From contig JAILBQ010000048.1 of assembly GCA_024680815.1 (NCBI GenBank), positions 1 through 52,684 of the forward strand: a stretch of DNA of 52,684 nucleotides. The letters run 5' to 3'. The position numbers and the translations under genes were made by a program. Of this stretch, positions 2,717 to 21,912 are shown piece by piece. Position 1 is the first letter of the stretch. Each line of letters opens with the position of its first letter. The notes beneath the pieces were generated by a model that was not told where the DNA came from, made no database searches, and saw nothing but the letters and a program-made list of their open reading frames with translations. Origin of the DNA: Lachnospiraceae bacterium. Lineage in GTDB: Bacteria > Bacillota > Clostridia > Lachnospirales > Lachnospiraceae.

Positions 2717-2727
2717 GGCCTTCCTCC

Positions 2728-3219: not shown

Positions 3220-3230
3220 GCTTAACCCCC

Positions 3231-6406: not shown

Positions 6407-6438
6407 GGCAGCTCTCCTCCTTTGAATCTAATATAAAT

Positions 6439-6467
6439 ATCATAAAATTATTTCTTTTTTTGGTCAA
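6439..6467 (-). promoter_or_regulatory. Sigma-A promoter of the xdh-ssnA-ygfK operon
   Basis: On the minus strand TTGACC (6467-6462) and TATGAT (6444-6439) are separated by exactly 17 bp, in an AT-rich stretch. The predicted transcription start is near 6432, giving a leader of about 25 nt that contains GGAGGAG in front of xdhA. Confidence 0.75.
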
Positions 6468-6503
6468 TACGAACTTTTTTCTTTTCCGGCATTTTGAGAT
6501 TTT

Positions 6504-6550
6504 TGGTAATATTTACTAAAAAATATGGTAATATAAAAAAACAATACCAT
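6504..6550 (+). promoter_or_regulatory. Repeated TGGTAATAT boxes, candidate selD promoter and regulator site
   Basis: TGGTAATAT occurs at 6504-6512 and again at 6526-6534, 22 bp apart (about two helical turns), and the inverted form AATACCAT lies at 6543-6550. The second copy could act as an extended -10 (TGG-TAATAT) for selD, whose ATG lies 30 bp downstream. No good -35 is seen at 17 bp. The arrangement would suit a dimeric regulator such as the nearby LysR protein, but that is inference. Confidence 0.4.
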
Positions 6551-6564
6551 TGAGAGGAAAAGCC

Positions 6565-7620
6565 ATGAATTCATCCGATACCCAAGCTCCCGTCCGTCTC
6601 ACGAAACTCACCAAAGCCTCGGGCTGCGCCGCAAAAATCGGCCCGAAAACCCTTTCGGAGGTGCTTTCAGCTCTCCCGAAGTTTTCCGCTCCCGAGCTTT
6701 TGGTGGGGCTCGACACCTCGGACGACGCCGCTGTCTGGAAAATCTCCGATGAGCTGGCGGTGGTGGAAACCCTGGATTTCTTTACCCCCGTCGTGGACGA
6801 TCCCTATCTTTTCGGGAAAATCGCCGCCACCAATGCCTTAAGCGACGTCTACGCCATGGGGGGCGAGCCTAAATTCGCCCTCAACATCGTGGGCTTCCCC
6901 TCCACAATTCCGCCGAAGGTGCTTCAGGAGATAATGACAGGGGGCGCCGACAGAGTGAAGGAAGCGGGCGCGGTACTGGTGGGGGGCCATTCCATAACAA
7001 ACGACGACCCCATCTACGGCCTGGCGGTCACGGGCTTTGTGCATCCGGATAAAGTCCGTACAAATGCCGGGGCAAAGCCCGGAGATGTTCTCCTGCTCAC
7101 AAAGCAGCTGGGAGTCGGAATCATAAATACCGCAGTAAAAGCCGAAATGGCCACAGCGGCGGAAAAAGAAGAAGCGATTCTTGTCATGAGCTCCTTGAAC
7201 GCTCCTGCAAAAAACGTGATGGATTGCTTTACGGTCCACGCCTGCACCGATGTTACAGGCTTCGGCCTTATCGGACACTCCTTCGAGATGGCAAAGGGCA
7301 GCGGCGTCACAATCGAGCTTGACGTATCCGGCACAGCCTTTCTTTCCGGAGCAAAGGACTACGCCGGAATGGGCCTTATCCCGGGAGGGGCCTACCGCAA
7401 CAGGGAATTTGTGGGGGACAATCTCGATCCCGGCTCTGTGGAAGAGGTTTATCTCGATCTTCTTTTCGACCCCCAGACCTCCGGCGGACTTCTTTTCAGT
7501 ATTCCCGAAAAGGAGTGCGATGCCGCCCTCTCCGCCTTTGAACACTCCGGTATAAAAACCGCCGTTTCGGTTGTCGGAAAAGTCCTTCCCGAAGAAGAAA
7601 AACTTATCCGGGTAGTTTAA
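6565..7620 (+). CDS. selD: Selenide, water dikinase (selenophosphate synthase)
   Basis: A 351-residue SelD that makes selenophosphate from selenide and ATP. The catalytic region reads SGCAAKIGP, with the essential Cys at C21 and Lys at K24; the position is Cys, not selenocysteine. DTSDDAAVW, ETLDFFTPVVDDP and NALSDVYAMGG are typical AIRS/PurM-family nucleotide and metal motifs. ATG 6565 follows GAGAGG; a TTG 15 bp earlier is rejected. The gene is divergent from the molybdenum hydroxylase operon and 17 bp ahead of a LysR gene. No selA, selB or selC is visible nearby, so the selenophosphate may serve the hydroxylase cofactor rather than selenocysteine; genes outside the window could change that. 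Confidence 0.95.
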   Translation: MNSSDTQAPVRLTKLTKASGCAAKIGPKTLSEVLSALPKFSAPELLVGLDTSDDAAVWKISDELAVVETLDFFTPVVDDPYLFGKIAATNALSDVYAMGGEPKFALNIVGFPSTIPPKVLQEIMTGGADRVKEAGAVLVGGHSITNDDPIYGLAVTGFVHPDKVRTNAGAKPGDVLLLTKQLGVGIINTAVKAEMATAAEKEEAILVMSSLNAPAKNVMDCFTVHACTDVTGFGLIGHSFEMAKGSGVTIELDVSGTAFLSGAKDYAGMGLIPGGAYRNREFVGDNLDPGSVEEVYLDLLFDPQTSGGLLFSIPEKECDAALSAFEHSGIKTAVSVVGKVLPEEEKLIRVV

Positions 7621-7637
7621 AAAACGGGTGCAAAGAA

Positions 7638-8537
7638 ATGAATCTGAACCAGATACGGTCCTTTGTGAAGCTCGCCAACAACTTCAGTTTTTCCCAGACC
7701 GCAAAAGAACTGCATTTCACCCAGCCCACGGTGAGCTCCTACATACGGAAGCTGGAGGAGGAGCTGGGAATTGTACTCTTCCAGCGGACCACCAGAGGCG
7801 TGGAGCTTACTGAGGAAGGGAAAAAAATCTATATACACGCCAGACAGATCGTGGAATCCGCGGAGGCCATAGAAGCTCTCTCGGACAGGAGCAAGGCTCC
7901 CGAAAGCCAGCTTATAATAGCTTCCTCCACTATTCCCACGGAATATCTCCTGCCTGCCCTGCTCTCCGCCTTCAGGGAGGAATATCCCGATGTGAAGCTG
8001 AAGCTTAAGGAAACCTCCAGCGAAAACGTTGCGCAGGAGGTGGCGGCCCATACGGCGGATATAGGCTTTTCCGGCGCGGTATTCGAGGCAAAGAACTGTG
8101 CCTTTACCCCGGTGTTCGAGGACGAGCTCATCGTCATTACCCCGAACAGAAAAAAATACCGGGAATACCAGAAAAACGGAACGGATCTTTCCTGGATTCT
8201 CGAAGAAAACGTGATATTGAGGGAAGCGGGATCGGGCACCCGCAGGGAATCCTTAAAGCGTCTTAAGGATATAGGAATAGCCCCCGAAAAGCTGAAGGTC
8301 ATTGCCGATATAAACAGTCCCCAGGCCATCCTCCAGTCGGTGGAGAAGGGCCTGGGTATCTCGTTTTTATCCGACCTCGCCGCAAAAAAGGGGCTGCAGA
8401 ACAAAAAACTCTTAGGCTTCGCCCTGTCCGAAACAGGGTTCCGCCGCAAACTCTATATGGTGACAAATACACTCTATCCCGCCACCGAAGCCGTTAAAGC
8501 CTTCGCAAGGTTCGCCGGCTCCTTCTTTCCGGGATAA
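7638..8537 (+). CDS. LysR-family regulator associated with selenium metabolism
   Basis: A 299-residue LysR-type regulator. Residues 1-60 form the winged helix-turn-helix (NQIRSFVKLANNFSFSQTAK, then TQPTVSSYIRKLEEELG), followed by a linker helix and a periplasmic-binding-protein-like effector domain. It lies 17 bp after selD on the same strand, so the two are probably co-transcribed. A family of LysR proteins travels with selD and the selenium-dependent hydroxylases, and position alone suggests control of the divergent xdh operon and perhaps of metNIQ. The effector is unknown. The ribosome-binding site is weak, consistent with coupling to selD. Confidence 0.88.
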   Translation: MNLNQIRSFVKLANNFSFSQTAKELHFTQPTVSSYIRKLEEELGIVLFQRTTRGVELTEEGKKIYIHARQIVESAEAIEALSDRSKAPESQLIIASSTIPTEYLLPALLSAFREEYPDVKLKLKETSSENVAQEVAAHTADIGFSGAVFEAKNCAFTPVFEDELIVITPNRKKYREYQKNGTDLSWILEENVILREAGSGTRRESLKRLKDIGIAPEKLKVIADINSPQAILQSVEKGLGISFLSDLAAKKGLQNKKLLGFALSETGFRRKLYMVTNTLYPATEAVKAFARFAGSFFPG

Positions 8538-8543
8538 CGTCCT

Positions 8544-9428
8544 TTAATCTTTGGCCGGTATCACGGCTCCGTTATAATTGTCTGTGATAAACTGCTTTAT
8601 TTCAGCGGACTGAAGCACCTCCACCAGAGTCTTGATCGCTTCATTGTCCTTATTGGCCTCTGTGACGGTTATGATATTGGCATACTCGGAATCCTCGCCC
8701 TCTCTCATAAGATAAGCCGTCGTGTCCAGCCCCGCTTCCAGAGCACGGTTGACATTGACGAAGAAAGCGTCAAAATCCTCGGAAGAAGGAATAATGTTCG
8801 CCTGATCCATCTCAATTAACTCAATGGGCTTCACATACTCCTCGACTTCCTTCACCGCGGCATCCATCGGGGACATGTCGGGATTCAGCTTGATAAAGCC
8901 TTCGCTCTCCAACACCTTGAGGGCTCTGTATTCGTTGGAAGAATCGTTGGGAATAGCGATGACGGCCCCTTCCGGAAGCTCATCCTTTGACTTATATTTA
9001 TCCGAGAAGCAGGCATAAGGTTCCACATGAATGCCACCCATGCTGTAGAGCGTCACTCCCATTTCATCCTCTATGCTGTGCATGGCAGGCACGTGCATGA
9101 AATAAGCGAAATCGATCTCACCGTCCACAAGCATCTCGTTCCAGGTCGCGTCCCAGGTGGTGGAGACGATATCCAGCTTTATGCCTTTTTCGGCCAGCTG
9201 ATCGGCGGCCGCGTTCAGTATCTCACTGTGGGGAGTCAGATCGCAGACGCATTTAAGCACCGTCTCTTCCGCTGCTGCCGGGGCTTCGGAAGCCTCTTTG
9301 GCCGGTTCGCCTTCTTCCGGAGCCGGAGCGGGTGCCGGAGCAGGCGCCGTGGCCGTGCCGGTGCAGCCGGAAAGTGCCGCCGCTGCCAGTGAAAGGCTCA
9401 GTAATGCTGTCATCAGTTTTCTTTTCAT
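8544..9428 (-). CDS. metQ: MetQ/NlpA-family substrate-binding lipoprotein
   Basis: A 294-residue extracellular binding protein. A short signal peptide ends in the lipobox ALSGC with the lipidated cysteine at C22, then an Ala/Pro/Glu-rich linker of about 35 residues, then an NlpA-type ligand-binding fold (CDLTPHSEILNAAADQL, later DFAYFMHVPA). The ribosome-binding site AAGGAGGG is strong. The gene is separated from metI by 235 bp holding a structured element. Family members bind methionine or related amino acids. Placement among selenium genes raises selenomethionine or another selenium compound as an alternative ligand, which is speculative. Confidence 0.88.
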   Translation of the reverse strand: MKRKLMTALLSLSLAAAALSGCTGTATAPAPAPAPAPEEGEPAKEASEAPAAAEETVLKCVCDLTPHSEILNAAADQLAEKGIKLDIVSTTWDATWNEMLVDGEIDFAYFMHVPAMHSIEDEMGVTLYSMGGIHVEPYACFSDKYKSKDELPEGAVIAIPNDSSNEYRALKVLESEGFIKLNPDMSPMDAAVKEVEEYVKPIELIEMDQANIIPSSEDFDAFFVNVNRALEAGLDTTAYLMREGEDSEYANIITVTEANKDNEAIKTLVEVLQSAEIKQFITDNYNGAVIPAKD

Positions 9429-9461
9429 CAGTAAAACCCTCCTTTTAAAAAATTAATTATT

Positions 9462-9650
9462 ATGTCAGCCTGATCTGACATCACCAGATACGAAAGTGCG
9501 GATTGCTCCGTGCCTACGGCACTCTCGCAATCCTGGCCCGTACTCGCATATCGCTCCGCTTCGCGTAGCTTTTAGGCTCGTACGGGGCAGGTTCTCTAAT
9601 GTTCACACGAAACCTCGAGTAAACTCGGGTTTCGGTGACCATTGAGAACA
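9462..9650. repeat. Multi-hairpin intergenic element between metI and metQ
   Basis: Four inverted repeats lie in tandem. ATGTCAG/CTGACAT spans 9462-9481. GGATTGC/GCAATCC spans 9500-9533, with an inner GTGCC/GGCAC. A GC-rich arm pair spans 9536-9588 (GCCCGTAC against GTACGGGGC). A long imperfect stem spans 9591-9649, with arms GTTCTC..TTCAC and GTGA..GAGAAC and an inner CGAAACC/GGTTTCG then CGAGT/ACTCG. No ORF fits. It looks like an intercistronic repeat or a degraded MITE-like element. It could also act as an mRNA-processing or attenuation structure. No second copy was seen in the window. Confidence 0.6.
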
Positions 9651-9663
9651 CTTTCAGAGTAAA

Positions 9664-10374
9664 TTATATGAGATGACGCTTTTTCAGGATAAGATTGGAA
9701 AACAGGTTTCCGATAAACTGCACGGCCTGTACGATGACAATGAGCACCAGGATGGTCGCGATCAGAAGATCGTGGTCATAACGGGTAAAACCATAGGTCA
9801 CGGCGATATATCCGATACCGCCGGCTCCGAAGCTGCCGGCCAGAGCCGTCATGGAGATCACAATGATCACCGCGTTGGTAAAGGCCCGTATTAAAGACGG
9901 CAGGGACTCCGGCACCATGACCTTAAACAGTATCTGGGCATTTGTGCTTCCCATGGCCTTGGCCGCTTCGATCTTGCCCTTTTCCAGCTCCAGAAGAGAG
10001 CTCTCCACCAGTCTCGCGAAGAGAGGCACGCAGCTGGCTACCAGAGATAAAATGCAGGCGTTGGATCCGTAGGATTTCCCCAGCAGGGCTCTGGCCACAG
10101 GCAGCATCACTATGATTATGATCACCTGCGGCAGGGAACGGAAGCAGTTTATCAGGGCCCCCAGCACGTTATGGACCGGCGCGCAGGGCATCAGCCCGTC
10201 AGGGGCGGTCATCACCAGTATGAGCCCGAGGATGAGACCGAAAAGCAGGACAAATACCGAGGAGACCAGAACCATATACATGGTCTCTCCCAGAGCCGGC
10301 AGCACCTCCTCCCAGACCTCGGCGGAAAAGGCGTGTTTAAATACCTCCCAGAATGAATATTTATATAAACTCAT
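9664..10374 (-). CDS. metI: MetI-type ABC transporter permease
   Basis: A 236-residue integral membrane permease with about five hydrophobic segments. The first (near residues 32-55) is preceded by an amphipathic N-terminus, and the cytoplasmic EAA loop (EAAKAMGSTNAQILFKVMVPE) that contacts the ATPase is clear. The GAGGIGY segment is typical of MetI. ATG 10374 is preceded by AAAAGGAAG. The gene follows metN by 15 bp and should form the MetN2I2 importer, fed by the MetQ lipoprotein downstream. Confidence 0.9.
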   Translation of the reverse strand: MSLYKYSFWEVFKHAFSAEVWEEVLPALGETMYMVLVSSVFVLLFGLILGLILVMTAPDGLMPCAPVHNVLGALINCFRSLPQVIIIIVMLPVARALLGKSYGSNACILSLVASCVPLFARLVESSLLELEKGKIEAAKAMGSTNAQILFKVMVPESLPSLIRAFTNAVIIVISMTALAGSFGAGGIGYIAVTYGFTRYDHDLLIATILVLIVIVQAVQFIGNLFSNLILKKRHLI

Positions 10375-10389
10375 CGCACTTCCTTTTTA

Positions 10390-11163
10390 CTATTCGGAAA
10401 ATGTATCGCTGCGAAACCGGTTGTATACCTCGATAAAACCTTTGGCCGTATCGCAGACAGGATTACGGAATATATCGGAGACCAGCCCCTGCTCCACAAA
10501 CCGTCCCTGCTCCATGACCGCCATGCGCCGGCAGGTGTATTTCACCACCTCCAGCTCGTGGGTTATCATGAGAATGGTAAGTCCCAGCTTTTTATTAATC
10601 TGAAGAAGAAGATCCAGAACGGAAAGGGTCGTCTGCGGATCCAGCGCGCTGGTCGCCTCATCGGAGAGCAGCACATCCGGGCGGTTGGCCAGAGCCCTTG
10701 CGATGCCTACTCTCTGTTTCTGGCCTCCGGACAGCTCTCCGGGATATGCATCCCTTTTGTCTGTCAATGACACGAGCTCGAGCATCTCCGATATCCGCTC
10801 TTCCTTTTCCTTCTCCGTCATACCGCTGTTTTTCAGGGAATAGGCGATATTCTGACGGGCCGTCATCGAATCAAAGAGATTGAACTGCTGGAAGATCATG
10901 CCGATCTTGCGCCGCTGTCTGTTGAGCTCACTCTTTTTAAGAGCGGTGACATCCACTCCGCCAATCAGGACGCTTCCCTCATCAGGCTCCTCCAGCCGGT
11001 TTATGCACCGCACAAGAGTGGATTTTCCGGCGCCGCTGTAGCCCACGACTCCGAAGATCTCTCCCTTTTCGATGCTTAAGTCTATACCCTTTAACACCTC
11101 GACGGTCTGCTTCCTGCTGCGGAATGTCTTATGCAGATTTTTAACAACGAGAAAATCGCTCAT
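10390..11163 (-). CDS. metN: MetN-type ABC transporter ATPase lacking the NIL regulatory domain
   Basis: A 257-residue ATPase with Walker A GYSGAGKST at 41-49, signature LSGGQKQR near 142, Walker B DVLLSDEATSALDP, and the H-loop MITHEL. Canonical MetN proteins are about 340 residues because of a C-terminal NIL/ACT-like domain that mediates inhibition by internal methionine. This protein stops before that domain, so it should lack this transinhibition. There is no Shine-Dalgarno sequence before ATG 11163. The start lies 8 bp after a predicted -10 box, so a leaderless mRNA is likely. Confidence 0.9.
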   Translation of the reverse strand: MSDFLVVKNLHKTFRSRKQTVEVLKGIDLSIEKGEIFGVVGYSGAGKSTLVRCINRLEEPDEGSVLIGGVDVTALKKSELNRQRRKIGMIFQQFNLFDSMTARQNIAYSLKNSGMTEKEKEERISEMLELVSLTDKRDAYPGELSGGQKQRVGIARALANRPDVLLSDEATSALDPQTTLSVLDLLLQINKKLGLTILMITHELEVVKYTCRRMAVMEQGRFVEQGLVSDIFRNPVCDTAKGFIEVYNRFRSDTFSE

Positions 11164-11171
11164 ATTTTATT

Positions 11172-11200
11172 AATATAAAGCAGCCGGAGACTTTCTTCAA
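11172..11200 (-). promoter_or_regulatory. Promoter of metNIQ, leaderless layout
   Basis: TTGAAG (11200-11195) and TATATT (11177-11172) are 17 bp apart on the minus strand. Only AATAAAAT separates the -10 from the metN ATG, so transcription should start at or next to the start codon. The short upstream space leaves no room for a SAM or other riboswitch. Confidence 0.6.
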
Positions 11201-11204
11201 GCTT

Positions 11205-11793
11205 TTACAGATATTTATCCCTTTTCCCGTTATAAGCCTTCTTCTTTCCGTCACAGGTTGTCTCTCCGACGAACATGTCGGCTATCCTGAAATAGGGACA
11301 GGTCTTTCCTATGCGCGCCCCGACCGATGCCTTGATAAGAGTGCAGGTGTTCTGCGGCAATACCTTTTCTCCCTCCTTATTCTTTCCCGCAAGAACCGCC
11401 GCTCCGATCGCCCCGGCATATCTCGCCCGTTCGCAGGAGCGGACCTCTCTTCCGATACGGTCCGACAGGAGCTTCCGGAAATATTCTTCCTCACAGAGCC
11501 CTCCGGTCAGATAAACCGGCCGGGCCGGGCCCTTTATTTTCGCGTATTCCTGCCAGACCTTCACCGCGATGGAATTTAATACTCCCCAGGCTATGAAAAT
11601 TCCTCAACCCTGCCGTCCGTGCAGGCTATGACCTTCGTATCCTGCCCTCCCACATCTATGACATGGATGGGTTCGGGAGAAAATAAAAATGATGCCCCCA
11701 GTGCATGACAGGTGATCTCGGTTATGCTTTTTCATTGTCCAGAACCGCCGTCTTGGCCGAAGTTGAACCTATATCTATCCCGATGTATTCCAT
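11205..11793 (-). pseudogene. Decayed 2-hydroxyacyl-CoA dehydratase/double-cubane reductase activase
   Basis: Three homologous pieces occur in different frames. From ATG 11793 the first 23 codons read like an ASKHA-family activase start (GIDIGSTSAKTAVLD) and end in TAA. A second frame continues with ITCHALGA and VIDVGGQDTK and ends in TAG near 11593. A third frame (stop at 11205) gives the C-terminal VYLTGGLCEEEYFRKLL and GAIGAAVLAG. The Cys-containing middle (the usual NDKCAAGTG and the second [4Fe-4S] ligand) is missing, so internal deletions rather than a single frameshift killed the gene. It sits 12 bp downstream of yedF. The family activates 2-hydroxyacyl-CoA dehydratases or double-cubane-cluster reductases. 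Confidence 0.8.
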
Positions 11794-11805
11794 TGTGTTC
11801 CTCAA

Positions 11806-12432
11806 TTACGGACGGATTATCCTTCCGGCTCCGGCGAGGGTTTCCACAATATCATACATATTCGTGACGCTTCCCACGGCGAGCTTTTCCTTAAGGCCGT
11901 AGAAGTCGAGGCAGGTGCCGCAGGTTTTTATCTCCACCCCGGCCTTTTCCAGGGCCTTTAAATCCTCCAGGGAATCCGACCCCTCGGTTGTTATATATGC
12001 CCCGCCGTTATAGGCAAGTATCGTATCCGGAAGAGAACCAAGATTTGTGAGGGCGTAGATAAAGGCCTTCATCAGGGCCGCCCCCAGCTTTTCATCCCCG
12101 GTTCCCATGAAGCGGGAGGAGAGGACCACCACGCTTTTCGCTCCCGGAATTGTACATGATGCGGCAATTTCCTCGGCCGCCGCGTCGCCTTTATCCTTGT
12201 CGAGGACTGAAAGCTTAACGTCAAAATCCACCTCGAAGGCTCCCTCTCCCTTCTTTCTGCTCTCCACCTTAAAGCCCATGGAGCCGCCGAGCTTTGTCAG
12301 GTTTTTTACGGCGATGTCGTTGTCCACAAGGATCGTCAGGGTGCCGTCCTCCGTGAAGGCCTCCGCCGCCTTTTTCGCGTTGATTACGGGCTGCGGGCAG
12401 GCAAGTCCCATGCAGTCAAGAGTCTGATTCAT
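11806..12432 (-). CDS. yedF: YedF, selenium-metabolism sulfurtransferase-like protein
   Basis: A 208-residue two-domain protein. Residues 1-75 are a TusA-like domain with the CPxP motif (ACPQPV, Cys at 12) used to carry persulfide-type sulfur or selenium. The rest is a DsrE-like domain with GGAYITTEGS and KTCGTCLDFYG. This architecture is the YedF family found with selD and selenium-dependent hydroxylases. It begins 28 bp after the cysteine desulfurase behind GGAGAG. A role passing Se or S between the desulfurase/DUF3343 and the Mo cofactor is inference from context. Confidence 0.93.
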   Translation of the reverse strand: MNQTLDCMGLACPQPVINAKKAAEAFTEDGTLTILVDNDIAVKNLTKLGGSMGFKVESRKKGEGAFEVDFDVKLSVLDKDKGDAAAEEIAASCTIPGAKSVVVLSSRFMGTGDEKLGAALMKAFIYALTNLGSLPDTILAYNGGAYITTEGSDSLEDLKALEKAGVEIKTCGTCLDFYGLKEKLAVGSVTNMYDIVETLAGAGRIIRP

Positions 12433-12460
12433 TTTTTCTCTCCGTCCTTTCTTAAATTTA

Positions 12461-13603
12461 TTACTGTTCCGCTATTTTTTTAACGGCCTCAGCCGCCGCG
12501 TCCGCCTCTTCGGGAATATTGAAATACGAAAAGCTGAAGCGCACCGCCCCCTGCTCCACGGTTCCGAAGGTCTCGTGCATAAGCGGGGCGCAGTGGCCGC
12601 CGCTGCGGGTCGCGATTCCGAAATCCTCAAAAAGCGCATCAGACACCTCCGCCGAATCGTAATCCCCGATATTCAGGGTAACTATCGGGCAGCGCTTTCC
12701 GGCCTCATAATCCCCGTAAAACTTAAGCCCCGGAACCTCCTTCACGGCTTCATAAAATCGCCGTGCAAGAAATGCCTCTCTTTCCCCGATGGCCGTAATC
12801 CCTGTTTCGAGAATAAACTCCACCCCGGCCTTCAGTCCCGCCAGGGAATGGCCGTTAAGCGTCCCTGCCTCCAGGGCCGTGGGGAGCTCCTCCGGCTGGG
12901 TTTTCGAAAAGGTCTGAACCCCGGTGCCGCCGGTTTTTAACGGCCGGATTTTTACTCCCTCCCCCACAACCATGCCGCCGGTTCCCTGGGGTCCGAAGAG
13001 AGCCTTGTGCCCGGTAAAGCAGAGCACGTCTATGCCCGTAGCCGGCAGATCGATGGGAAAGGCCCCCGCACTCTGGGAGGCGTCCACTATGGTCAAAAGG
13101 CCGCGTTTTTTCGCAAGGGCCGCAACAGCCCCCACATCCACGATATTTCCCGTAAGATTTGAGGCATGGGTAACAACGATCCCCCGGGTTTTCGGGGTAA
13201 TGAGTCCCTCGATTTCTTCGAGTTTTAAGCGTCCCTTTTCATCCGCCCCGGCAAAGGAGAGGCTCACTCCCCTCTCCTTCAACTCATAGAGGGGCCGCAG
13301 CACCGAATTATGCTCCAGCACCGTGGAAATAACATGGTCGCCTTCCTTAAATATCCCCTTGATGGCGGTATTCAGGCTTTCGGTTGAATTGGAGGAAAAA
13401 ACGATCCGCCTCGGATCGCTGACGTGAAAGAGCCCGGCCAGAGCCAGGCGTGTTCCGTAAATGACACGGGAGGCATCCAGAGAGCCTTCATGGGCTCCCC
13501 TGCCTGAATTTCCCAGAGCTTCAAGAGCGGCGCACACCGCCTTTACAACCTCCGGTGGTTTTTTCATGGTGGTGGCCGCGTTATCGAGATAGATCATGCT
13601 CAC
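12461..13603 (-). CDS. Cysteine desulfurase/selenocysteine lyase family protein (class V aminotransferase)
   Basis: A 380-residue PLP enzyme. YLDNAATT opens the fold, the PLP-binding lysine is K200 in CFTGHKALFG, and the active-site loop cysteine is C338 in RSGGHCAP. It belongs to the group often encoded beside yedF and DUF3343. Its ATG overlaps the stop of the DUF3343 gene (ATGA), so the two are coupled. It should release sulfur or selenium from cysteine or selenocysteine as an enzyme-bound per(seleno)sulfide; which element it prefers cannot be read from the sequence. Confidence 0.92.
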   Translation of the reverse strand: MSMIYLDNAATTMKKPPEVVKAVCAALEALGNSGRGAHEGSLDASRVIYGTRLALAGLFHVSDPRRIVFSSNSTESLNTAIKGIFKEGDHVISTVLEHNSVLRPLYELKERGVSLSFAGADEKGRLKLEEIEGLITPKTRGIVVTHASNLTGNIVDVGAVAALAKKRGLLTIVDASQSAGAFPIDLPATGIDVLCFTGHKALFGPQGTGGMVVGEGVKIRPLKTGGTGVQTFSKTQPEELPTALEAGTLNGHSLAGLKAGVEFILETGITAIGEREAFLARRFYEAVKEVPGLKFYGDYEAGKRCPIVTLNIGDYDSAEVSDALFEDFGIATRSGGHCAPLMHETFGTVEQGAVRFSFSYFNIPEEADAAAEAVKKIAEQ

Positions 13604-13920: not shown

Positions 13921-16900
13921 TCAGGATTTTATCGTTATGATCTCCGGCGTCATATACTTTCCGAGCTTTTCCGCCACATAAGCTTTGATCTTCTCTTTGT
14001 CAATATCCGCCGGACACTTAAGAGCCGCCTTGACATAGAACAGATTATTTTCCCCGTACTCCAGGGAGACCTCCGCCTTTTCTATCCCCGGGAAGCCCTC
14101 CAGAGTCCGTTCCAGCTCAAACAGGTTGATATAGGAGCGGCCCATGATCGTTTCCCGCACCACGGTTCTGCCCGCCTGATAGAGGGCCTCCACCTTGTGA
14201 TCCGGCGTGATCCTGGCTTCTATCCCGGTGTCGTAGAGAATCCCCGGTGTATACAGGCTCTCGATCGTCTCTTTGCATCCGTTCACCGGCCGGTTCAGGA
14301 TATAGAGTCTCCCCCAGGCGCCGAAGGGCTTCTTCAGCCCGTATTCATCCAGCACGTAAGGTTTTATGATCTGATCCTCCTCCGCCCCGGGTATGACCTC
14401 GTAGCCGATGGAAGCGTTCAGGCGCTGGGCGGACATGCTTAAATGCTCCGGATACAGTTTTGCAGCAAGATGATCCTTTAGCTTTCGTACGGAGGTTTCC
14501 TCAAACATGGCCTTCAGTATATTTTCCATAGCCGTCAGGAAAACAAGGAGCATATCCCTGTCAAAGCGGTTCTCCCAGTACCTCAGCTCATAGGTATAGT
14601 CGTCCTTGCCGGCATAGACCATCATGTGGAAGGGCATCGAATCCAGCTGTACGCGGATCCCCTCCGCGCTCTCCCCGCCGATCTGAGGAATATTTAAGAG
14701 CTCGCCCTGATACTGGAAAAACATTTCATTTGCAAGCAGACAGGACATATGGGTCTCCATAGTATGAAGGATCTGATCGGCATTTCTCTTCAAGAGCTCT
14801 CCCACGGTCTCATGAGGAATTTTTTTATACCGGAAGGCATAGTTCGCATAAAACTGTCCGGCAATACGCACCCATCGGCCGTCGGTTCGGCCGTTATGGA
14901 TGCTTGTGATAACCACATCATCCAGCGCCCAGAAAAGCGCGGCCGTGTAGGAAAAGGCCGTAATAAACGCGGCGTTCTCGGAAACAGAGTGCTCCGAGCA
15001 GAAGCCCTGCAGATTTTTACGGTTTATCGTGGAAAACCTCCCCTTGATAAACGCGTTATGCGCCTTTCCCAGATCATAGCTGTCGCTCTTTGCCAGAACG
15101 CTTCTGCTCATATTGAGATCCTTAAGGAGCTTTTCATAAAACTCAATGTCCTTATCCCTCAATCCCGCCGCATCCCTGGCGTATTCATCCAGAATAAACT
15201 CATAGAAGCTGTAGGAGGACTTCTTTACCTCTTCACCGAGATAGAGACGGTTCAAATCCTCCAGAAGGATGCTCATGGTCATGCCGTCGCCGATGATATG
15301 CGCCACATCGAAGAAGAGATACTTTGCTCCCTCGGTCCGGTACAGACCGATGTGGTAGAGATTTTCACCCTTCGTATACATAAAGGGTCTCAGCAGTGTT
15401 TTTCTCTTTTCCTCCCATTCCTCATCGGAAAGGGTAAGTCTTTCTATCTCCGGCTCTAATGTATCACACCGGAAGTTGGCATATCTCCCCTCCGCCCCCG
15501 GCTCGATGCGGTCCGAAAGGATAGGGTGGATTTCAAAAAGCTGCCGGATCGCCTTTTCCATGCGGTCCAGATCGATCCTGTCGGAGAGCTTATAGAAAAA
15601 CGGAAGATTGGCTGTCGTATTACCCTTCAGGACATAGGCAAAATACATCTGCTGTCTTGTTAAGGGATAGGTCTCCCGCTTTGTATAATCCGTTCCGCCT
15701 GCCTCTCCGGCTTTCTTTTCCTTAAGAAGAGCGAGCTTTTCGACAGAGGCATTTTCCATAAGCTCCGTCAGAGTCAGGGCAAAGTCCAGACTGTCCTGAA
15801 GCTCGGTTAAGAGCAGAATACTGGTAAATGAGTCCAGCCCCGAGGTATAAAGATCGGTATCAATACCGAATTTTCTGTGCCCCAGAACATTTGCCACGGC
15901 CTCATACACCTTTTCCTGTCCCTCGTTTTCGGGAAGACGTATATTCGCCTTCTGCTCCTTTGCCTCTTTTCTTTCCCGGAAAAAGGCTTCCCGGATGATT
16001 TTTTTGGAAGAGGTCTTCTGGAACGGCGCTTTTCTGAAGCTTGTCTGCAGAATCCGTTTATAGGGAGGAAGCTTCTGGTTGTAAGCCTTGATATGCTCCT
16101 CTATCTCCAGCTCGATATTTTTGACTCCCGCGTTCTGCGCATTGCCGTAATCCGGAAAGACCTCGCATTTTATGACATCATCCTCCCCGAAGACAAGGAT
16201 TTCGCTGATTAACGGATCCGCGGAGAGAGCGCTCTCCAGCTCTTCGGGGGCAATATTCTCACCGTTGCTTAAAATAATCAGATTCTTAAGTCTGCCTGTC
16301 AGATAGAGGAAGCCTTCCTCATCCAGATACCCGATGTCTCCTGTCTTTAACCACCCGTCCTCCGTGAAGGCTTCCTTTGTGAGCTCCGGCTCGTTATAAT
16401 AGCCCTGCATTACATAGGGAGAACGCACCTGGATCTCTCCGCCCTCGGCGATCCGCGCCTCCACCGCGGAAAGAAGCTTTCCGGCGGAGCTGAGCTTTTC
16501 GATTCTTCCGTATTCCGCCTGGGAAATAATCGGCGAGCACTCGCTCATGCCGTAGCCCTGTCCGATCAGAACTCCCATGGCCGCGTATTTTTCCGCCAGA
16601 TCCTGGGGTAGTCCTCCGCCGCCGCAGACAATCCTGGACAGCCTTCTTCCGTAGACCTGATACAGCGCGTCCCTCTCGGTCATTCCGGGATCCGCGTCCA
16701 CCATGGCCGCGATCCGGTTATATAGCGCTCTCGCAATCATCGGCACCAGGTATATAACCGAGGGCTCGAACATCCTTAAGTGCTTTCCGAGCTGTGACAG
16801 GGGGCCGTTGATGCAGATTGTCGCCCCTTTATGGATCATGGTAAGAACATCGGCATTGATGCAGTACACGTGATGGATCGGCAGGGTCAGCAGGCTTACA

Positions 16901-19104
16901 ACCGGTTCCGGATCATCCACGGGATTCTGCCCCAGGACATTACCCGCCAGGTTGGAATTAGTTAACATAACTCCCTTGCCCCGACCTGTTGTCCCGGAGG
17001 TAAAAAGTATCATCGCAAGATCCTCCGGCGACACCGAAGCTTCCGCCCCTTCTTCTCCCCAGCTCTTCCCTCCGAAACGGGTGTCCCGGAGGATATCGTT
17101 AAGACAGGGATTCTTTTTCACGGACTGCAGAGAATAGTATTCCCTGACCTTCGGGCAGAGCCCTTTCGCATCCTTAATAAGCGGCTCCTGCTCCCAGTCA
17201 TAAAACAGGATATCCACATCCGAACGGTTAAGACAGTCCGAAAGATGGGAAAGATCCATCTGGGCGTCCAAAGGTACCACCGTGTTTCCCGAGGCCATCA
17301 CACCGGTCAGGACGGAAATATAATGCGCGCCCGCCGAGCCGAACATTCCGACCTTCACCCGACGCCCCCACTCCGTCCGCTTTTCGTTTACAAAGGCTCC
17401 TACGATGCGGCACAGCTCCCCGAAACGTTCGTAGCTGATGTCGTAGACCAGGTCATCCTCCCTCTCATAACGAAGAGCAATTCTCTCCGGATATGCCGAC
17501 ACACTGCTTTCCAGCAGGTCTCTTATGGTTCTTATTTCTTCACTGCCCATCCCTTTCTCCTCCGTCTTATTAAACACCCTGTTAATGAACTCCATTCTTT
17601 TATCCATGGCAGCGGCCAGCACAGCGCTGTCCTTTGCCATGTCAAACGCGTGCACCGTGCCCTTCGTTTTGTTTAAAACCACCTCGCAGCCGTTTTCCTT
17701 AAGCATTTCGGCATAGGCTATACCCTCATCCCTCAGCGCGTCAAACTCGGCCGTTTCCACGTATGCCGGCGGAAGATTTTCAAGAGAGGCGGCGGAGGCC
17801 GGATGCAGATAATATTTCTGTGCCCCGTCGTCGGTTTTAAGGAGCCTGTGATACGACCTTATGGCGTCGGCGTTAACGACGGGCACATCGGTAAATTCCT
17901 TCATCGACTTTGTCTCCGTGTCGAGGCCGATGCTGGGATATAAAAGAAGCTGGCCTGCAAGCGGAGTGCCGTTGTCCCTTGCAAGGAGGGAAAGCGCCGC
18001 CGTCATGGTTCCGCCCGAGCTGTCGCCCATGGCCGCGATGCGCTTCGCATCTATCTTAAGCTCATCAGCGCCTGCAATAAGATATTTTAATACCTCATAA
18101 GCCTCCTTTATGGGAAGAGGCAGGGAATATTTCGGCCCCAGATGCTGAAGGAGGAAGAAAACCACGCTCCCGGTTTTTTCAACAATCTTTCTGGCCAACC
18201 GGTAATGGTAGGGCAGGGCCGGCAGCATAAACGCGCCCCCGTGCATAAAGAGAACCGCGGGAAGGGGTTCCGGACCCTTTTTCTCAGCCGGCGTAAATTT
18301 AAGCAGGGAAACATACCCCTTCGGCGAGCTTTCGCAGGGAATCTTCATTTTATCCACCTGCACTTTATCCGTGGAAGCCTGCCTGTCGGGAAGCCTGCCG
18401 TAAAGGAGCTTAACCATCTTTATCTGGAATCTCGTCTTTGCAACAGGAATTTTTGTCAGCGGTATAAGCTCGGGATCCAGAGGATATTTCCCGACCTTCT
18501 TCCCTTTGGACTTCCAGAAGGGAACATGGATCGTAAGCTCCGAATGATCCTCAAAGACAAATACCCTTATATCATCCGAGAGGTTGGCAATGATCGAATG
18601 GCTTATTTCAATCCAGTTCGCGGCGTCGTCCTCGATGAGTCTGTCAAAGGACGCTCTGTTATATGCCTCCTCCGTCCATACATAGGCCGCTCCGGTAAAG
18701 TCAAGGCCCATCTCCTCGAAATCCTTCGGCGCGGCCTTTCTTAAGCCTATATCCGCAAGCCCCGTAGCCCCCTTCTCTATTGTCTCATAGCTTAAGCCGA
18801 GAATCCGGCCGATCTTGCTCATGATTCCCTCCGGGGCACGATCTTCTTCGGTTTCCGAAGCGCTTATCCGGGAAGCCTGCATCAGCATAAGACGTACGGC
18901 ACAGCCCGAACCGTCTCCCTCGATACTCAGGGTTCCTTCCCGGTTATCGGGCAGATTCTCTATGATTTCCGCCGTTTCCTCGGCTATCAGCCTTAAGTGA
19001 AGTCTGTCCTTTGGCTCAAGGCCGGTGCTCCCGGAATACCGCTCCGCAAGTTCAATTGCCTGCTCCGCGCTTTTCCCTTTTTCGACTTCCGCTTTAACAA
19101 TCAT
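13921..19104 (-). CDS. NRPS-like megaenzyme: hydrolase, adenylation, carrier, condensation, partial second adenylation tail
   Basis: A 1,727-residue protein. Residues 1-~200 are unassigned; 15-80 faintly resemble an anti-sigma (RsbW-type) ATPase fold. Residues ~280-510 are an HSL-type alpha/beta hydrolase: HGGA oxyanion motif at 289, nucleophile S362 in GDSSGG, acid D455, His H485. Residues ~520-1045 are an AMP-forming adenylation domain: FTSGTTGRGKG at 701, GYGMSECSP at 850, KTGDIGYLDEEGF at 920, catalytic Lys about K1035. Residues ~1060-1130 are a carrier domain, phosphopantetheine Ser S1092 in GLDSFTS. Residues ~1143-1545 are condensation-like with AHIIGDG at 1268 (catalytic His H1269 kept, first His replaced by Ala). 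Residues ~1590-1727 resemble only the C-terminal lobe of a second adenylation domain. ATG 19104 follows AAGGA. Product unknown; no phosphopantetheinyl transferase is in the window. Confidence 0.85.
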   Translation of the reverse strand: MIVKAEVEKGKSAEQAIELAERYSGSTGLEPKDRLHLRLIAEETAEIIENLPDNREGTLSIEGDGSGCAVRLMLMQASRISASETEEDRAPEGIMSKIGRILGLSYETIEKGATGLADIGLRKAAPKDFEEMGLDFTGAAYVWTEEAYNRASFDRLIEDDAANWIEISHSIIANLSDDIRVFVFEDHSELTIHVPFWKSKGKKVGKYPLDPELIPLTKIPVAKTRFQIKMVKLLYGRLPDRQASTDKVQVDKMKIPCESSPKGYVSLLKFTPAEKKGPEPLPAVLFMHGGAFMLPALPYHYRLARKIVEKTGSVVFFLLQHLGPKYSLPLPIKEAYEVLKYLIAGADELKIDAKRIAAMGDSSGGTMTAALSLLARDNGTPLAGQLLLYPSIGLDTETKSMKEFTDVPVVNADAIRSYHRLLKTDDGAQKYYLHPASAASLENLPPAYVETAEFDALRDEGIAYAEMLKENGCEVVLNKTKGTVHAFDMAKDSAVLAAAMDKRMEFINRVFNKTEEKGMGSEEIRTIRDLLESSVSAYPERIALRYEREDDLVYDISYERFGELCRIVGAFVNEKRTEWGRRVKVGMFGSAGAHYISVLTGVMASGNTVVPLDAQMDLSHLSDCLNRSDVDILFYDWEQEPLIKDAKGLCPKVREYYSLQSVKKNPCLNDILRDTRFGGKSWGEEGAEASVSPEDLAMILFTSGTTGRGKGVMLTNSNLAGNVLGQNPVDDPEPVVSLLTLPIHHVYCINADVLTMIHKGATICINGPLSQLGKHLRMFEPSVIYLVPMIARALYNRIAAMVDADPGMTERDALYQVYGRRLSRIVCGGGGLPQDLAEKYAAMGVLIGQGYGMSECSPIISQAEYGRIEKLSSAGKLLSAVEARIAEGGEIQVRSPYVMQGYYNEPELTKEAFTEDGWLKTGDIGYLDEEGFLYLTGRLKNLIILSNGENIAPEELESALSADPLISEILVFGEDDVIKCEVFPDYGNAQNAGVKNIELEIEEHIKAYNQKLPPYKRILQTSFRKAPFQKTSSKKIIREAFFRERKEAKEQKANIRLPENEGQEKVYEAVANVLGHRKFGIDTDLYTSGLDSFTSILLLTELQDSLDFALTLTELMENASVEKLALLKEKKAGEAGGTDYTKRETYPLTRQQMYFAYVLKGNTTANLPFFYKLSDRIDLDRMEKAIRQLFEIHPILSDRIEPGAEGRYANFRCDTLEPEIERLTLSDEEWEEKRKTLLRPFMYTKGENLYHIGLYRTEGAKYLFFDVAHIIGDGMTMSILLEDLNRLYLGEEVKKSSYSFYEFILDEYARDAAGLRDKDIEFYEKLLKDLNMSRSVLAKSDSYDLGKAHNAFIKGRFSTINRKNLQGFCSEHSVSENAAFITAFSYTAALFWALDDVVITSIHNGRTDGRWVRIAGQFYANYAFRYKKIPHETVGELLKRNADQILHTMETHMSCLLANEMFFQYQGELLNIPQIGGESAEGIRVQLDSMPFHMMVYAGKDDYTYELRYWENRFDRDMLLVFLTAMENILKAMFEETSVRKLKDHLAAKLYPEHLSMSAQRLNASIGYEVIPGAEEDQIIKPYVLDEYGLKKPFGAWGRLYILNRPVNGCKETIESLYTPGILYDTGIEARITPDHKVEALYQAGRTVVRETIMGRSYINLFELERTLEGFPGIEKAEVSLEYGENNLFYVKAALKCPADIDKEKIKAYVAEKLGKYMTPEIITIKS

Positions 19105-19129: not shown

Positions 19130-20353
19130 CTATCTGTCCTTTTCCTCTTTGACTATGAGATCCCTGTTGGCAATCTCATATTTATTGAGCTCGGTATCGG
19201 GTACCTCGTCTTTCTCCGGAGTGTACCACCTCTTTTCACCGAAATATTCCTGAAGCTTTATATCCTTGAATTTCCGGCCGTGCCGCGCATATATTTCGTT
19301 GCGGGCAAGACGCAGCTCCTCATCCGAAAGTCCCCTTATATCGCTCTGCTCCAGATATACGCTGTCGCTCCACGGGAGGATATAGTCTCCTGATGCGCCG
19401 CTCTCTTCCTCCTCTTTTTCCGCGGGTTCATCAGTCTTTTTGCCCGAATCCGCCGAAGAGGAAGCATCAAACTTCTGAAGCTCTCCCTCCACGTTTTCAA
19501 ATTCGGCCTTTTTGATTATTTCCGCGGTTTTCACGGAATAATAATAGACGGGTTCATCATGGTTTTTGGCGTAGGGGTTACCTGTCAGCCGGATTTTGCT
19601 GTAGCTTAGCACCCTGTTTTCCGGATCCTCCGCCTCATAATCCACAATTCCCGAATAGACGGTAAATGTGGAGTCTCCGTTATCGATGAACCCGAAGAGC
19701 TCCGGGCCTGAAGCTCCGAAATCTCCCAGTCCCACTTTGTAGGCTTTCTTTCCGCTGTCGTATTTTATCAATTCATATTTGGCCGTCTGCCCGGATATTT
19801 CCGGCATTTCCCCGTCAAAGCCCGGATCGAAGGCGGAGGCATACATGCACATGACCTCCTCCGGAACGGAAACGAAGCTGTCCTCCACCTTAAGCTCCCC
19901 GCCGAACTTATTGCCGGCATTCGCGTTATACCCGGAAAGAACCATAATCATCGACCAGTATCCATCCTCTCCCGCAGTATAACTTCCCTGGTTTTTCAGC
20001 TCCAGATCATCACTGAGCCCATAGGTCGCGCTTAAAAGCACATACTCCATATCTCCAAGCTTCCTGTAGAACGGATCGGACACCTCCGTAACCTCAGTCC
20101 CGGAATCCTCTTCTTTCTCGCCGTCCTCTTCCTCGAAGTCCTCTACCACATCGTAGTCTTCATCCTCTTCCCCGTCTTCCTCCTCATCCTGTTCATCCCA
20201 GTCGGTGTCCCACTCCTCCTCTTCGTCCGCGAAGTCCTCATACTCCTCCCCGTCATCATCGTTTCCCATGTTGATGGTAACCGATTCCGGAATGCCGCAG
20301 CCTCCCAGCAGCATAAGGGTCAGGGCAATCAGAAATATCCTCAGTTTTTTCAT
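19130..20353 (-). CDS. Acidic lipoprotein with C-terminal YARHG domain
   Basis: A 407-residue lipoprotein, with lipobox LLGGC and lipidated C19. Residues ~28-90 are an extreme Asp/Glu tract broken by few other residues. A beta-rich middle of unknown fold follows, and the C-terminus carries a YARHG domain (LARNEIYARHGRKFKD then YFGEKRWYTP), found in extracellular or cell-wall-associated proteins. ATG 20353 is chosen because AAAGGAGA precedes it and the signal peptide begins there. The ATG overlaps the glycosyltransferase stop (ATGA). Its role is not known. It lies 25 bp ahead of the NRPS-like gene and is probably co-transcribed with it. Confidence 0.88.
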   Translation of the reverse strand: MKKLRIFLIALTLMLLGGCGIPESVTINMGNDDDGEEYEDFADEEEEWDTDWDEQDEEEDGEEDEDYDVVEDFEEEDGEKEEDSGTEVTEVSDPFYRKLGDMEYVLLSATYGLSDDLELKNQGSYTAGEDGYWSMIMVLSGYNANAGNKFGGELKVEDSFVSVPEEVMCMYASAFDPGFDGEMPEISGQTAKYELIKYDSGKKAYKVGLGDFGASGPELFGFIDNGDSTFTVYSGIVDYEAEDPENRVLSYSKIRLTGNPYAKNHDEPVYYYSVKTAEIIKKAEFENVEGELQKFDASSSADSGKKTDEPAEKEEEESGASGDYILPWSDSVYLEQSDIRGLSDEELRLARNEIYARHGRKFKDIKLQEYFGEKRWYTPEKDEVPDTELNKYEIANRDLIVKEEKDR

Positions 20354-21912
20354 GGTTCTCCTTTCCGCCGCGCTTTCTGCGGCTCGCGTCTTAAAACTCC
20401 GGCGCATACGTCCTCATTCCAGACCTCCCCGGAAAAATTGTCCGAAATATATTTCCGTATCTCTTCAGGCAGGTCGGATAAGTCTCTGTGTACAGTAACA
20501 AGAAACAGGGTGTCGCAGTTTTCAAGGTCGGATACCGGAGCCTCCCCCTGAAGGCTCACACTCTTTATTTCCGTATCCCTCCCCCCGTTTCGTAAATAGT
20601 ATTCGGTAAAGCCCGCGGTAGCCCTGGGATTTACGGAGCAGACCACGGCTGAGCCCGGAGCATGAAGCTCTTCTCCCCCGGTTTCCCTTAAATACTGTGC
20701 CGCCTCCCTGAAGGGTTCGTAGCTGACCCCTGTCTCCTCCCGGACTCCCCGGTAATTGATAAGCCCCAGGTAGCACACGATAAAGGCCGTTGCCACAAAG
20801 GCAAGCTCCAGAGCCCTCTCCCTGTTTCCTCCGGAAAGAATATCCGTCCCCTCCTTTAAGCCCAGTCCCATCAGTATAAAAAGCGCGGGGAGGATCACGA
20901 AAAAATACCGGTTAACGAAGAACCCTCCGGCAGGATTTATTACGGCGCTGTAGATAAACACCAGCCCCACAGTCCCCCCTGAACACCATAAAAGAATCAG
21001 CGCGCCCGAAAGAGCCTTCCCGAAAGGCCGGCCGGAGGCGAAGGCACTAAAGAGGCGGAAGACAATTAAAAACACCGCAAAGAGCAGCAGAATAAAAAGG
21101 CTCTCCCTTCCCGAAAGAAGGAAGCGCACCATTCTTGCAAGCATCGGCAGGGTCGGCTTATCCGGCCAGAAGGAGCCGATGGATTTTTCCTTATTCATAA
21201 ACATCAGGATGAACCAGGCGGAGAAAAGCGCACCTGAAATGAAATACGGAATAAGACTCCGGGCCTTTTCCTTTCGGGAAAGCACAAAAACAAGCTCCGC
21301 GATCCCGAGGAACAGGACAAAAACCGCCCCCATATAGTGGGTGAATAAAAGGAGCACAAGAGAAACGGTAAAAAGAAATTCACGGCCGAAACGGGCCTTT
21401 GCCGAAAGTCCTCCGGCCAAAAATAAGCCTCTCCGAAAGAACACAAAAAGCAGGAGGGAAACATTGAAAACCATGAAGGCATATGCGCGAAACTCCATGG
21501 CGCAGCCGGTAATTATCGAACCGGAAAAGGCATAGAGCGCGGCGGTAAAGACCCCCGCCCTCTTCCCGAAGAGCTCTTCCGCGGCCAGAGCGGAAAAAAC
21601 GCAGCCGGCAGCGGCGGCCAGAGACGGCAGAAGGAGCATAATCCTGTCGGAGGCCGGAAAAAGCCTGTACCAGAGAGCGGCAGCAAGCGGAAAAAGAGGG
21701 AGATTCGTCACATCTACCCTTAAGTACTGCATCAGAATATCAACGAGGCCTTTATCCTTAGTTATGGTTCCTAAAAGTGAGAGCTCATCCAGCCAGAAAG
21801 ACTGAACCCCGGCCTGCATAAGGCAGAAGGCAAGCATAAGAAAGGCGAAAGCCAGATAGATTATCACCGGCTTTCGTGAAAAAAGCGCAAAACCACCGGT
21901 CCGGCTCTTCAT
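20350..21912 (-). CDS. GT39-like (PMT/ArnT-type) membrane glycosyltransferase
   Basis: A 520-residue polytopic protein with around ten hydrophobic segments and the GT-C acidic motif WLDELS in the first extracytoplasmic loop (near residue 40). The C-terminal third is a soluble domain, about residues 380-520. This is the topology of lipid-phosphosugar-dependent transferases that glycosylate proteins or surface polymers. Its start overlaps the ligA stop (ATGA), and its stop overlaps the lipoprotein start. Acceptor and donor are unknown; the neighbouring lipoprotein is one obvious candidate acceptor (inference). Confidence 0.82.
   Translation of the reverse strand: MKSRTGGFALFSRKPVIIYLAFAFLMLAFCLMQAGVQSFWLDELSLLGTITKDKGLVDILMQYLRVDVTNLPLFPLAAALWYRLFPASDRIMLLLPSLAAAAGCVFSALAAEELFGKRAGVFTAALYAFSGSIITGCAMEFRAYAFMVFNVSLLLFVFFRRGLFLAGGLSAKARFGREFLFTVSLVLLLFTHYMGAVFVLFLGIAELVFVLSRKEKARSLIPYFISGALFSAWFILMFMNKEKSIGSFWPDKPTLPMLARMVRFLLSGRESLFILLLFAVFLIVFRLFSAFASGRPFGKALSGALILLWCSGGTVGLVFIYSAVINPAGGFFVNRYFFVILPALFILMGLGLKEGTDILSGGNRERALELAFVATAFIVCYLGLINYRGVREETGVSYEPFREAAQYLRETGGEELHAPGSAVVCSVNPRATAGFTEYYLRNGGRDTEIKSVSLQGEAPVSDLENCDTLFLVTVHRDLSDLPEEIRKYISDNFSGEVWNEDVCAGVLRREPQKARRKGEP

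Follow-up and report, generated by a model that had tools for sequence, protein, structure and literature searches.

A candidate fatty-acyl conjugating system in Lachnospiraceae that pairs a serine esterase with a chimeric peptide synthetase-like protein

We analysed a 52,684-nucleotide stretch of DNA from a Lachnospiraceae bacterium (assembly GCA_024680815.1, contig JAILBQ010000048.1; hereafter the window), and in particular an open reading frame (ORF) that encodes a serine hydrolase followed by adenylation (A), carrier (peptidyl carrier protein, PCP) and condensation (C) domains of the kind found in nonribosomal peptide synthetases (NRPS). Sequence comparison indicates that the synthase part of this protein is a chimera, in which the acyl ligase of one lineage is joined to the C domain and the truncated A domain of a peptide synthetase. 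We propose a two-component fatty-acyl conjugating system, a serine esterase plus a chimeric NRPS-like synthase, encoded in one ORF only in this genome among the loci seen, and we give this proposal an even chance of being right. Component 1 would be a serine esterase extended at its N-terminus by a further domain, and component 2 would join a fatty-acyl ligase of the OaaA type to a carrier, a C domain derived from NRPS and the C-terminal remainder of an amputated NRPS A domain. The reference for the ligase is the Oaa system of Coprococcus eutactus (OaaA, OaaACP and OaaC; PDB 12KH), a case of NRPS-like fatty-acid conjugation by gut Clostridia described in PMC13142362. Gut enzymes of this kind produce hormone-like fatty acid amides; the protein studied here resembles them but is assembled in another way.

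A Pfam search of the 1727-residue protein recovered Abhydrolase_3 (residues 284-487), AMP-binding (532-903), AMP-binding_C_3 (941-1044), PP-binding (1065-1125) and Condensation (1143-1450). The four domains named in a first-pass annotation of this DNA are thus present in the order that it gave, while two parts had escaped it: about 200 residues without a Pfam match that precede the hydrolase, which is therefore not N-terminal as had been supposed, and a stretch of about 165 residues that follows the C domain. The family alignment comprised 31 rows, of which L068 is the same record as L010, so that it represents 30 distinct loci (the window and 29 others); the rows L013, L020 and L052 are cut by contig ends.

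Table 1. Features of the hydrolase-synthase ORF (positions in the window; aa, amino acids of the 1727-residue protein).
Feature	Positions	Strand	Details
A-PCP-C ORF	13921-19104	(-)	1727 aa, no internal stop
N-terminal domain, fold unassigned, aa 1-200	18505-19104	(-)	no Pfam match
Abhydrolase_3 (hormone-sensitive-lipase type) serine esterase, aa 213-515	17560-18468	(-)	triad S362, D455, H485; oxyanion HGG 288-290
Shine-Dalgarno GGAGG (17559-17563) and ATG (17548-17550, M519)	17548-17563	(-)	probable second-gene start
Acyl-type adenylation domain, OaaA-type clade, aa 524-1050	15955-17535	(-)	E855, D923, R938, catalytic K1035; AMP-binding E 7.1e-51
Carrier domain, aa 1051-1135	15700-15954	(-)	S1092 in GLDSF, phosphopantetheine site; PP-binding E 3.2e-8
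Condensation domain, aa 1136-1562	14419-15699	(-)	AHIIGDG (H1269, D1273); conserved SIH(N/S)GR
NRPS A-domain C-terminal stump, aa 1563-1727	13924-14418	(-)	without nucleotide-binding core and A10 lysine

The segment after the C domain was assigned by profile and structure comparison. Residues 1563-1725 aligned to NRPS A domains with hhalign (Prob 98.1, E 7.5e-14, 148 columns), compared with Prob 0.3 against the family's own acyl ligase, and the segment stops before the position of the catalytic lysine. It had no Pfam AMP-binding match; a weak YscJ_FliF match (E 0.012, below the cut-off) was dismissed as chance, and the reading of these residues as a linker was rejected in favour of an A-domain stump. 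An AlphaFold model of the PCP-C-stump part (mean predicted local distance difference test score, pLDDT, 89.9; predicted template modelling score, pTM, 0.89) could be laid with residues 6-677 on LgrA (6mfz 693-1695; 618 residues paired) and with residues 93-677 on the Txo2 C-A didomain (6p1j 44-990; 541 paired), and in both alignments several hundred residues of the A core had no partner in the model. Because the nucleotide-binding core and the A10 lysine are missing, the stump should not adenylate. A canonical C-A-T module has a working A domain and then a carrier after its C domain; here we found the last ~165 residues of an A domain and no carrier.

Residue E855 of the complete A domain is the same in all 30 rows that have a residue there, and D923, R938 and K1035 are likewise unvarying; we take these residues to belong to the motifs A5, A7, A8 and A10. 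Carrier residue S1092 is serine in 31/31 rows. The nucleotide loop, catalytic lysine and carrier serine lie where they had been annotated, with catalytic residues unvarying in the aligned relatives. In the A4 region, the family A domains have an LPIHH-type motif, and amino-acid A domains have a different one, with an Asp for the amino group. We built a tree of 47 A domains, in which 35 rows (26 of the family and nine OaaA-type or related ligases) lay on one side of a 100/100 branch, and the amino-acid NRPS A domains and the other ligases of the window's own genome lay on the other. Within the group of 35, six OaaA-type ligases formed their own branch (100/99), and the family A domains were nearest, with weaker support (94/92 and 88/80), to ligase L094 and the divergent ligases L100 and L101. 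The tree omits five of the 31 family rows (L020 and L052, shorter than 480 aa; L068, L044 and L046, near-copies) and was built without the OaaA sequence itself; "OaaA-type" denotes here the ligases with an OaaC-like neighbour and two more, L094 and L098, whose stretches hold no OaaC-like gene. The expectation that this A domain would resemble acyl ligases is supported by its position among the OaaA-type ligases, and by the tree it would be a fatty-acyl A domain of the OaaA type. Candidate phosphopantetheinyl transferases (frames of 241-252 aa) were detected in 5/5 genomes searched.

The C domain has another ancestry. Its H1269 and D1273 are invariant in 31/31 rows; the motif begins with A (29 rows) or S (2 rows) and ends with G in all 31, giving (A/S)HxxxDG. 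Relative to the HHxxxDG of canonical NRPS modules, the first His is replaced by Ala or Ser and the second His, the Asp and the Gly are kept in 31/31 rows; the C-domain fold and the PCP-C arrangement are those of canonical modules. The AHIIGDG of the window does not fit the Oaa-type motif (D/H)HxxxD(S/A): DHxxxDS is found in six of the eight OaaC-like rows, and NHMLADG in the two others, which are more distant (L100 and L101). A final G does occur in some fatty acid amide (FAA) domains, according to a preprint (PMC13142362). In the C-domain tree, 27 family domains formed a branch of their own (100/100) outside the FAA clade, eight OaaC-like domains formed another (100/99), and NRPS C domains lay between them. 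The nearest rows to the family (96/94) were seven C domains: five from same-genus amino-acid-type A-PCP-C proteins of ~950-1000 aa, one from a contig-cut ORF of A-PCP-C appearance and one from a 2077-aa NRPS. Four of the 31 family rows were left out of this tree (L068, duplicate; L013, L020 and L052, contig-cut), as were the OaaC sequence itself, three of the 24 NRPS loci in which no C domain was located (L106, L107 and L117) and L108, a copy of the own NRPS; several NRPS rows were long-branched and the program warned of long-branch joins. With hhalign, the family C domain reached E 3.6e-56 to 12 NRPS C domains versus 1.6e-7 to six OaaC-like ones, and among PDB sequences (E <= 0.01) it matched TycC at 2e-6, with 12kh not among the matches. 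The tree, hhalign and the PDB sequence search together rule out an OaaC homologue in the narrow sense; these comparisons place the family C domain with the ordinary NRPS ones.

The hydrolase shows the fold, HGG oxyanion motif and Ser-Asp-His triad of Abhydrolase_3 enzymes of the hormone-sensitive lipase (HSL) type; the annotated triad S362, D455 and H485 was confirmed, with S, D and H in 16/16 aligned hydrolase rows. An 8-residue tandem repeat, GAQDDRNA, forms the end of the hydrolase in two loci (L044:2485-4125 and L045:3915-5555). A serine hydrolase (esterase or lipase) of one of three Pfam families is adjacent or fused to the synthase in 16/30 distinct loci, the window included, and lies 5.5 kb from the family gene in L057. 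The Abhydrolase_3 profile gave no match around 13 amino-acid-type A-PCP-C genes or six oaa-type C genes outside the family loci.

The domain before the hydrolase had no Pfam match, and its best hit in a PDB profile search was at E only 0.15. Its homologues are fused to this type of hydrolase or occur as proteins of ~210 aa, and E42, E43 and S170 are invariant in 19 rows. In a model of 515 residues, ten-residue blocks of this domain had pLDDT 47-89, and the match list of a fold search with this model was filled by the hydrolase part. One homologue, of 209 aa, lies on contig C31 of the same genome (L076:8003-10885), between a putative sigma-factor-like gene and a membrane-bound O-acyltransferase (MBOAT) gene. 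Among 298 other genomes drawn from the family Lachnospiraceae, 14 had a match to the N-terminal domain at 1e-6.

Genes similar to the oaa set were found beside some members. Directly downstream of the family gene in G019 (L057) and G006 (L058), and in its orientation, lie in this order the genes for an OaaC-like C domain, an acyl carrier protein (ACP) and an OaaA-like ligase; in G031 (L056) an OaaC-like gene, within which the contig ends, lies directly beside the family gene. The stand-alone C domain L058:4954-6414 matches PDB 12kh (E 3.1e-136), which is OaaC of C. eutactus according to the preprint (PMC13142362). A comparison of neighbouring genes showed no OaaC-like neighbour in the other family loci. 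Since neither the window's own genome nor these loci yielded an OaaC-like gene or neighbour, the link of the family to fatty acid amides is suggestive, not general. Discrete oaa-like A, ACP and C genes were also observed in several same-genus genomes (L095, L096, L097, L099, L057 and L058; more distant, L100 and L101).

Based on these data, we propose the following reaction course. The esterase, judging from the gene pairing, would release a carboxylic acid, fatty or other, from an ester, or else hydrolyse unwanted acyl products. The A domain, by its kinship and intact residues, would then use ATP to form the acyl-AMP and load the acyl group on the fused carrier at S1092. The C domain would, through H1269, join the acyl group to a small nucleophile in free form, most probably an amine, and release an N-acyl amide. 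We favour a free acceptor because the polypeptide lacks, downstream of the C domain, both a working A domain and a carrier that could offer a tethered one, and an amine because of the A-domain kinship and the oaa neighbours. The stump, according to the predicted structure, may be a C-A packing platform that was kept without catalysis. Of the possible reactions, we grade as likeliest the one put forward in the first-pass annotation, in which the C domain passes the acyl group to an amine or an alcohol.

Several observations weigh against this course. The C domain is not OaaC-like, as its separation in the trees and its (A/S)HxxxDG motif show, in place of which DHxxxDS stands in six of eight OaaC-like rows; the use of free amines therefore does not follow by descent from OaaC, and the argument for it has to come from the architecture, and C domains of ordinary stock take carrier-bound acceptors. 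The window's own genome has no OaaC-like gene at 1e-20 and does have other carriers (six PF00550 matches, one of them the protein's own and two in a 2443-aa NRPS). For the esterase, no adjacent hydrolase was recognised in 14/30 loci, where neighbours were compared with the Abhydrolase_3 profile and a few with Pfam; hydrolase and synthase lie on separate contigs in G018, G024, G006 and G112; and G010 carries the hydrolase with no synthase found (genome 75% complete).

The carriers bear on lipo-initiation in trans, in which the protein would be an AmbB-like A-T-C starter that delivers its acyl group to a carrier-bound amino acid of a second NRPS protein, so that a lipopeptide results. We consider this unlikely, though the strongest of the alternatives. 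The genomes G011, G020 and G024 (completeness 87, 93 and 80%) have the family gene and no other Condensation match at E <= 1e-25; they do have other carriers, which could hold an acceptor in trans. The only C domain recognised beside family genes, in flanks compared with few queries, is the OaaC-like one of G006, G019 and G031.

It is less probable again that the C domain acylates a hydroxyl (of glycerol, a sugar, a polymer or a fatty alcohol), with the esterase as the reverse or editing activity. The repeated pairing with esterases and lipases and the O-acyltransferase gene next to the own-genome homologue of the N-terminal domain speak for such O-acyl transfer; the A-domain kinship and the oaa operons beside two homologues favour amides, and no feature of the C domain was shown to favour alcohols.

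The fusion of hydrolase and synthase had been annotated as part of the system, and this was not supported. Hydrolase, N-terminal domain included, and synthase occur together in ten other loci, always as two ORFs: hydrolase first in L009, L010 and L013 and, across contig breaks, also in G035 (L089) and G007 (L092), and synthase first in L044, L045, L046, L047 and L051. None of the 29 other distinct family loci had the fusion in one ORF. In L009, the nearest relative (64% identity in the hydrolase and 81% over A-PCP-C-stump), the hydrolase ends with TGA, which is followed by AAGGAGG and a new ATG; in the window the frame is open, but GGAGG, 8 bases and then the ATG of M519 are retained. Since the ten joint loci have two ORFs and the window keeps the second ribosome-binding site and ATG, the single-gene state is probably local, and the system is probably best read as two genes whose stop was lost (or masked by a draft-genome indel) in the window genome, a draft assembly of 145 contigs. 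The simplest reading of the junction is a short indel at the stop codon, natural or from the draft assembly, and whichever its origin, translation may initiate at M519. A genuine functional fusion in this species, channelling hydrolysis and conjugation in a single polypeptide, would agree with the uninterrupted frame and is the least probable alternative, given the two genes of L009, the clean internal ribosome-binding site and ATG, the 0/29 count and the five two-gene loci in the opposite order.

The relatives come from an uneven sample of 36 same-genus genomes, followed by draws of mostly one genome per genus. Besides the window's own genome, most of the A-PCP-C part was present in 20 of these 36 genomes and a contig-edge piece in one. 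None of 24 genomes from other families of the order passed 1e-80. In wider, overlapping draws at 1e-110, we found it in 8/298 other genomes of the family, 0/294 of the order and 1/290 of the class. The loci L156/L157 (G707, another family) are in no tree or count, and their ORF list, inspected by eye without Pfam, has no obvious adjacent hydrolase. A contig search of genome_contigs recovered the relatives L009 and L010 and a third hit, L011, limited to a 40% match over a stretch of A domain, from a Planctomycetota metagenome-assembled genome (MAG); the records of the nearest named relatives are Lachnospiraceae MAGs. The flanks of L009, L010, L041 and L043 had only the synthase/hydrolase pair in common with the window (L041 and L043 are without adjacent hydrolase, and the L013 contig has no flanks). 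As nothing beyond the pair recurs in the flanks that were compared, these genes seem to move between locations.

Next to the A-PCP-C ORF, the region 1376-13603 contains genes for an XdhABC xanthine dehydrogenase, SsnA, SelD, YedF and a cysteine-desulfurase-family protein, and looks like a set of selenium-dependent molybdenum hydroxylase genes. Within it, a 119-aa ORF (11205-11564) that joins the C-terminus of an FGGY/BadF-type ATPase to the start of a 2-hydroxyglutaryl-CoA dehydratase D or double-cubane reductase looks like the remnant of two genes. On the other side, an ORF of 520 aa (20350-21912), hydrophobic in appearance and without a Pfam match at 0.01, is perhaps a membrane glycosyltransferase.

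Tentatively, and with rather more doubt than for the conjugating system itself, we suggest that the family is a second, independently assembled route of gut Lachnospiraceae to fatty-acid conjugates, in which an OaaA-type ligase was fused to the carrier and C domain of a peptide synthetase whose A domain was cut to a stump, so that a former of peptide bonds became a single-chain acyl-amide synthase, supplied by an esterase of its own and releasing its products unbound. Fatty acid amides from gut bacteria act on host receptors (PMC13142362); should the family likewise make acyl conjugates, some producers are missing from the set now known. Searches with OaaC-based C domains would probably miss the family because its C domain lies on another branch and has another motif. 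If true, this would be a natural re-tooling of an NRPS module, with a foreign acyl ligase placed in front, the A domain amputated and its C-contacting part kept, which bears on the engineering of NRPS modules. The esterase pairing would link dietary or membrane lipid to the product.

Compared with HSL-family esterases such as the heroin esterase 1lzk, the window hydrolase shares the fold, the HGG and GDS-x-G motifs and the Ser-Asp-His triad, and differs in its extra ~200-aa N-terminal domain and in a gene that often adjoins the synthase. The A-T-C order is common to the family and AmbB of Pseudomonas aeruginosa (T-C structures 7x0f and 7x17). As in an AmbB-like starter, no working domain follows the C domain. 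To our knowledge, AmbB has no stump or esterase. The T domain of AmbB holds alanine as the donor, and the acceptor in the model of its C domain is a carrier of AmbE (PMC8968710). The same one-gene order was found in 13 amino-acid-type A-PCP-C proteins of the same genus, ~950-1000 aa long (L132-L142 and L144; e.g. L132:167-3139 and L137:3764-6715), whose carrier was identified by single-sequence query in four and by eye in three and was inferred from the A-C gap in the rest. Five of the seven C domains nearest to the family are of this kind, which is apparently a large group in the genus; these proteins differ from the family in their NRPS-type A domain, in ending at the C domain and in the absence of Abhydrolase_3 from all 13 stretches. 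With AmbB and these 13 examples, the A-carrier-C order, which the first-pass annotation had considered unusual, was rejected as a novelty in itself.

Its further suggestion of a previously undescribed system stands only partly: that gut Clostridia conjugate fatty acids with NRPS-like enzymes is already published (PMC13142362), and the chimeric single-chain form with a stump was not found in the literature consulted. That search covered titles and abstract openings, with most subscription papers outside its coverage, and the absence of a description of this architecture is weak evidence of novelty. Many NRPS clusters have been reported from rumen Lachnospiraceae (PMC8241843), so members of the family may already stand unnamed in such cluster lists.

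The Oaa system is among the closest comparisons. The A domain groups with the ligases of such gene sets, the acyl group would sit on a carrier, and the C domain has no downstream carrier; moreover, family genes adjoin oaa-like sets in G006 and G019, and in G031 they adjoin the OaaC part. The Oaa proteins are discrete and stand-alone, whereas the window and the uncut family loci encode A, carrier and C as parts of a single chain. Unlike the Oaa proteins, the family has its C domain on another branch, with (A/S)HxxxDG instead of DHxxxDS, and adds the A-domain stump and, in about half of the loci, a paired esterase. What appears to be new is the make-up of the protein: an OaaA-type A domain, an ordinary NRPS C domain and a dead A-domain stump.
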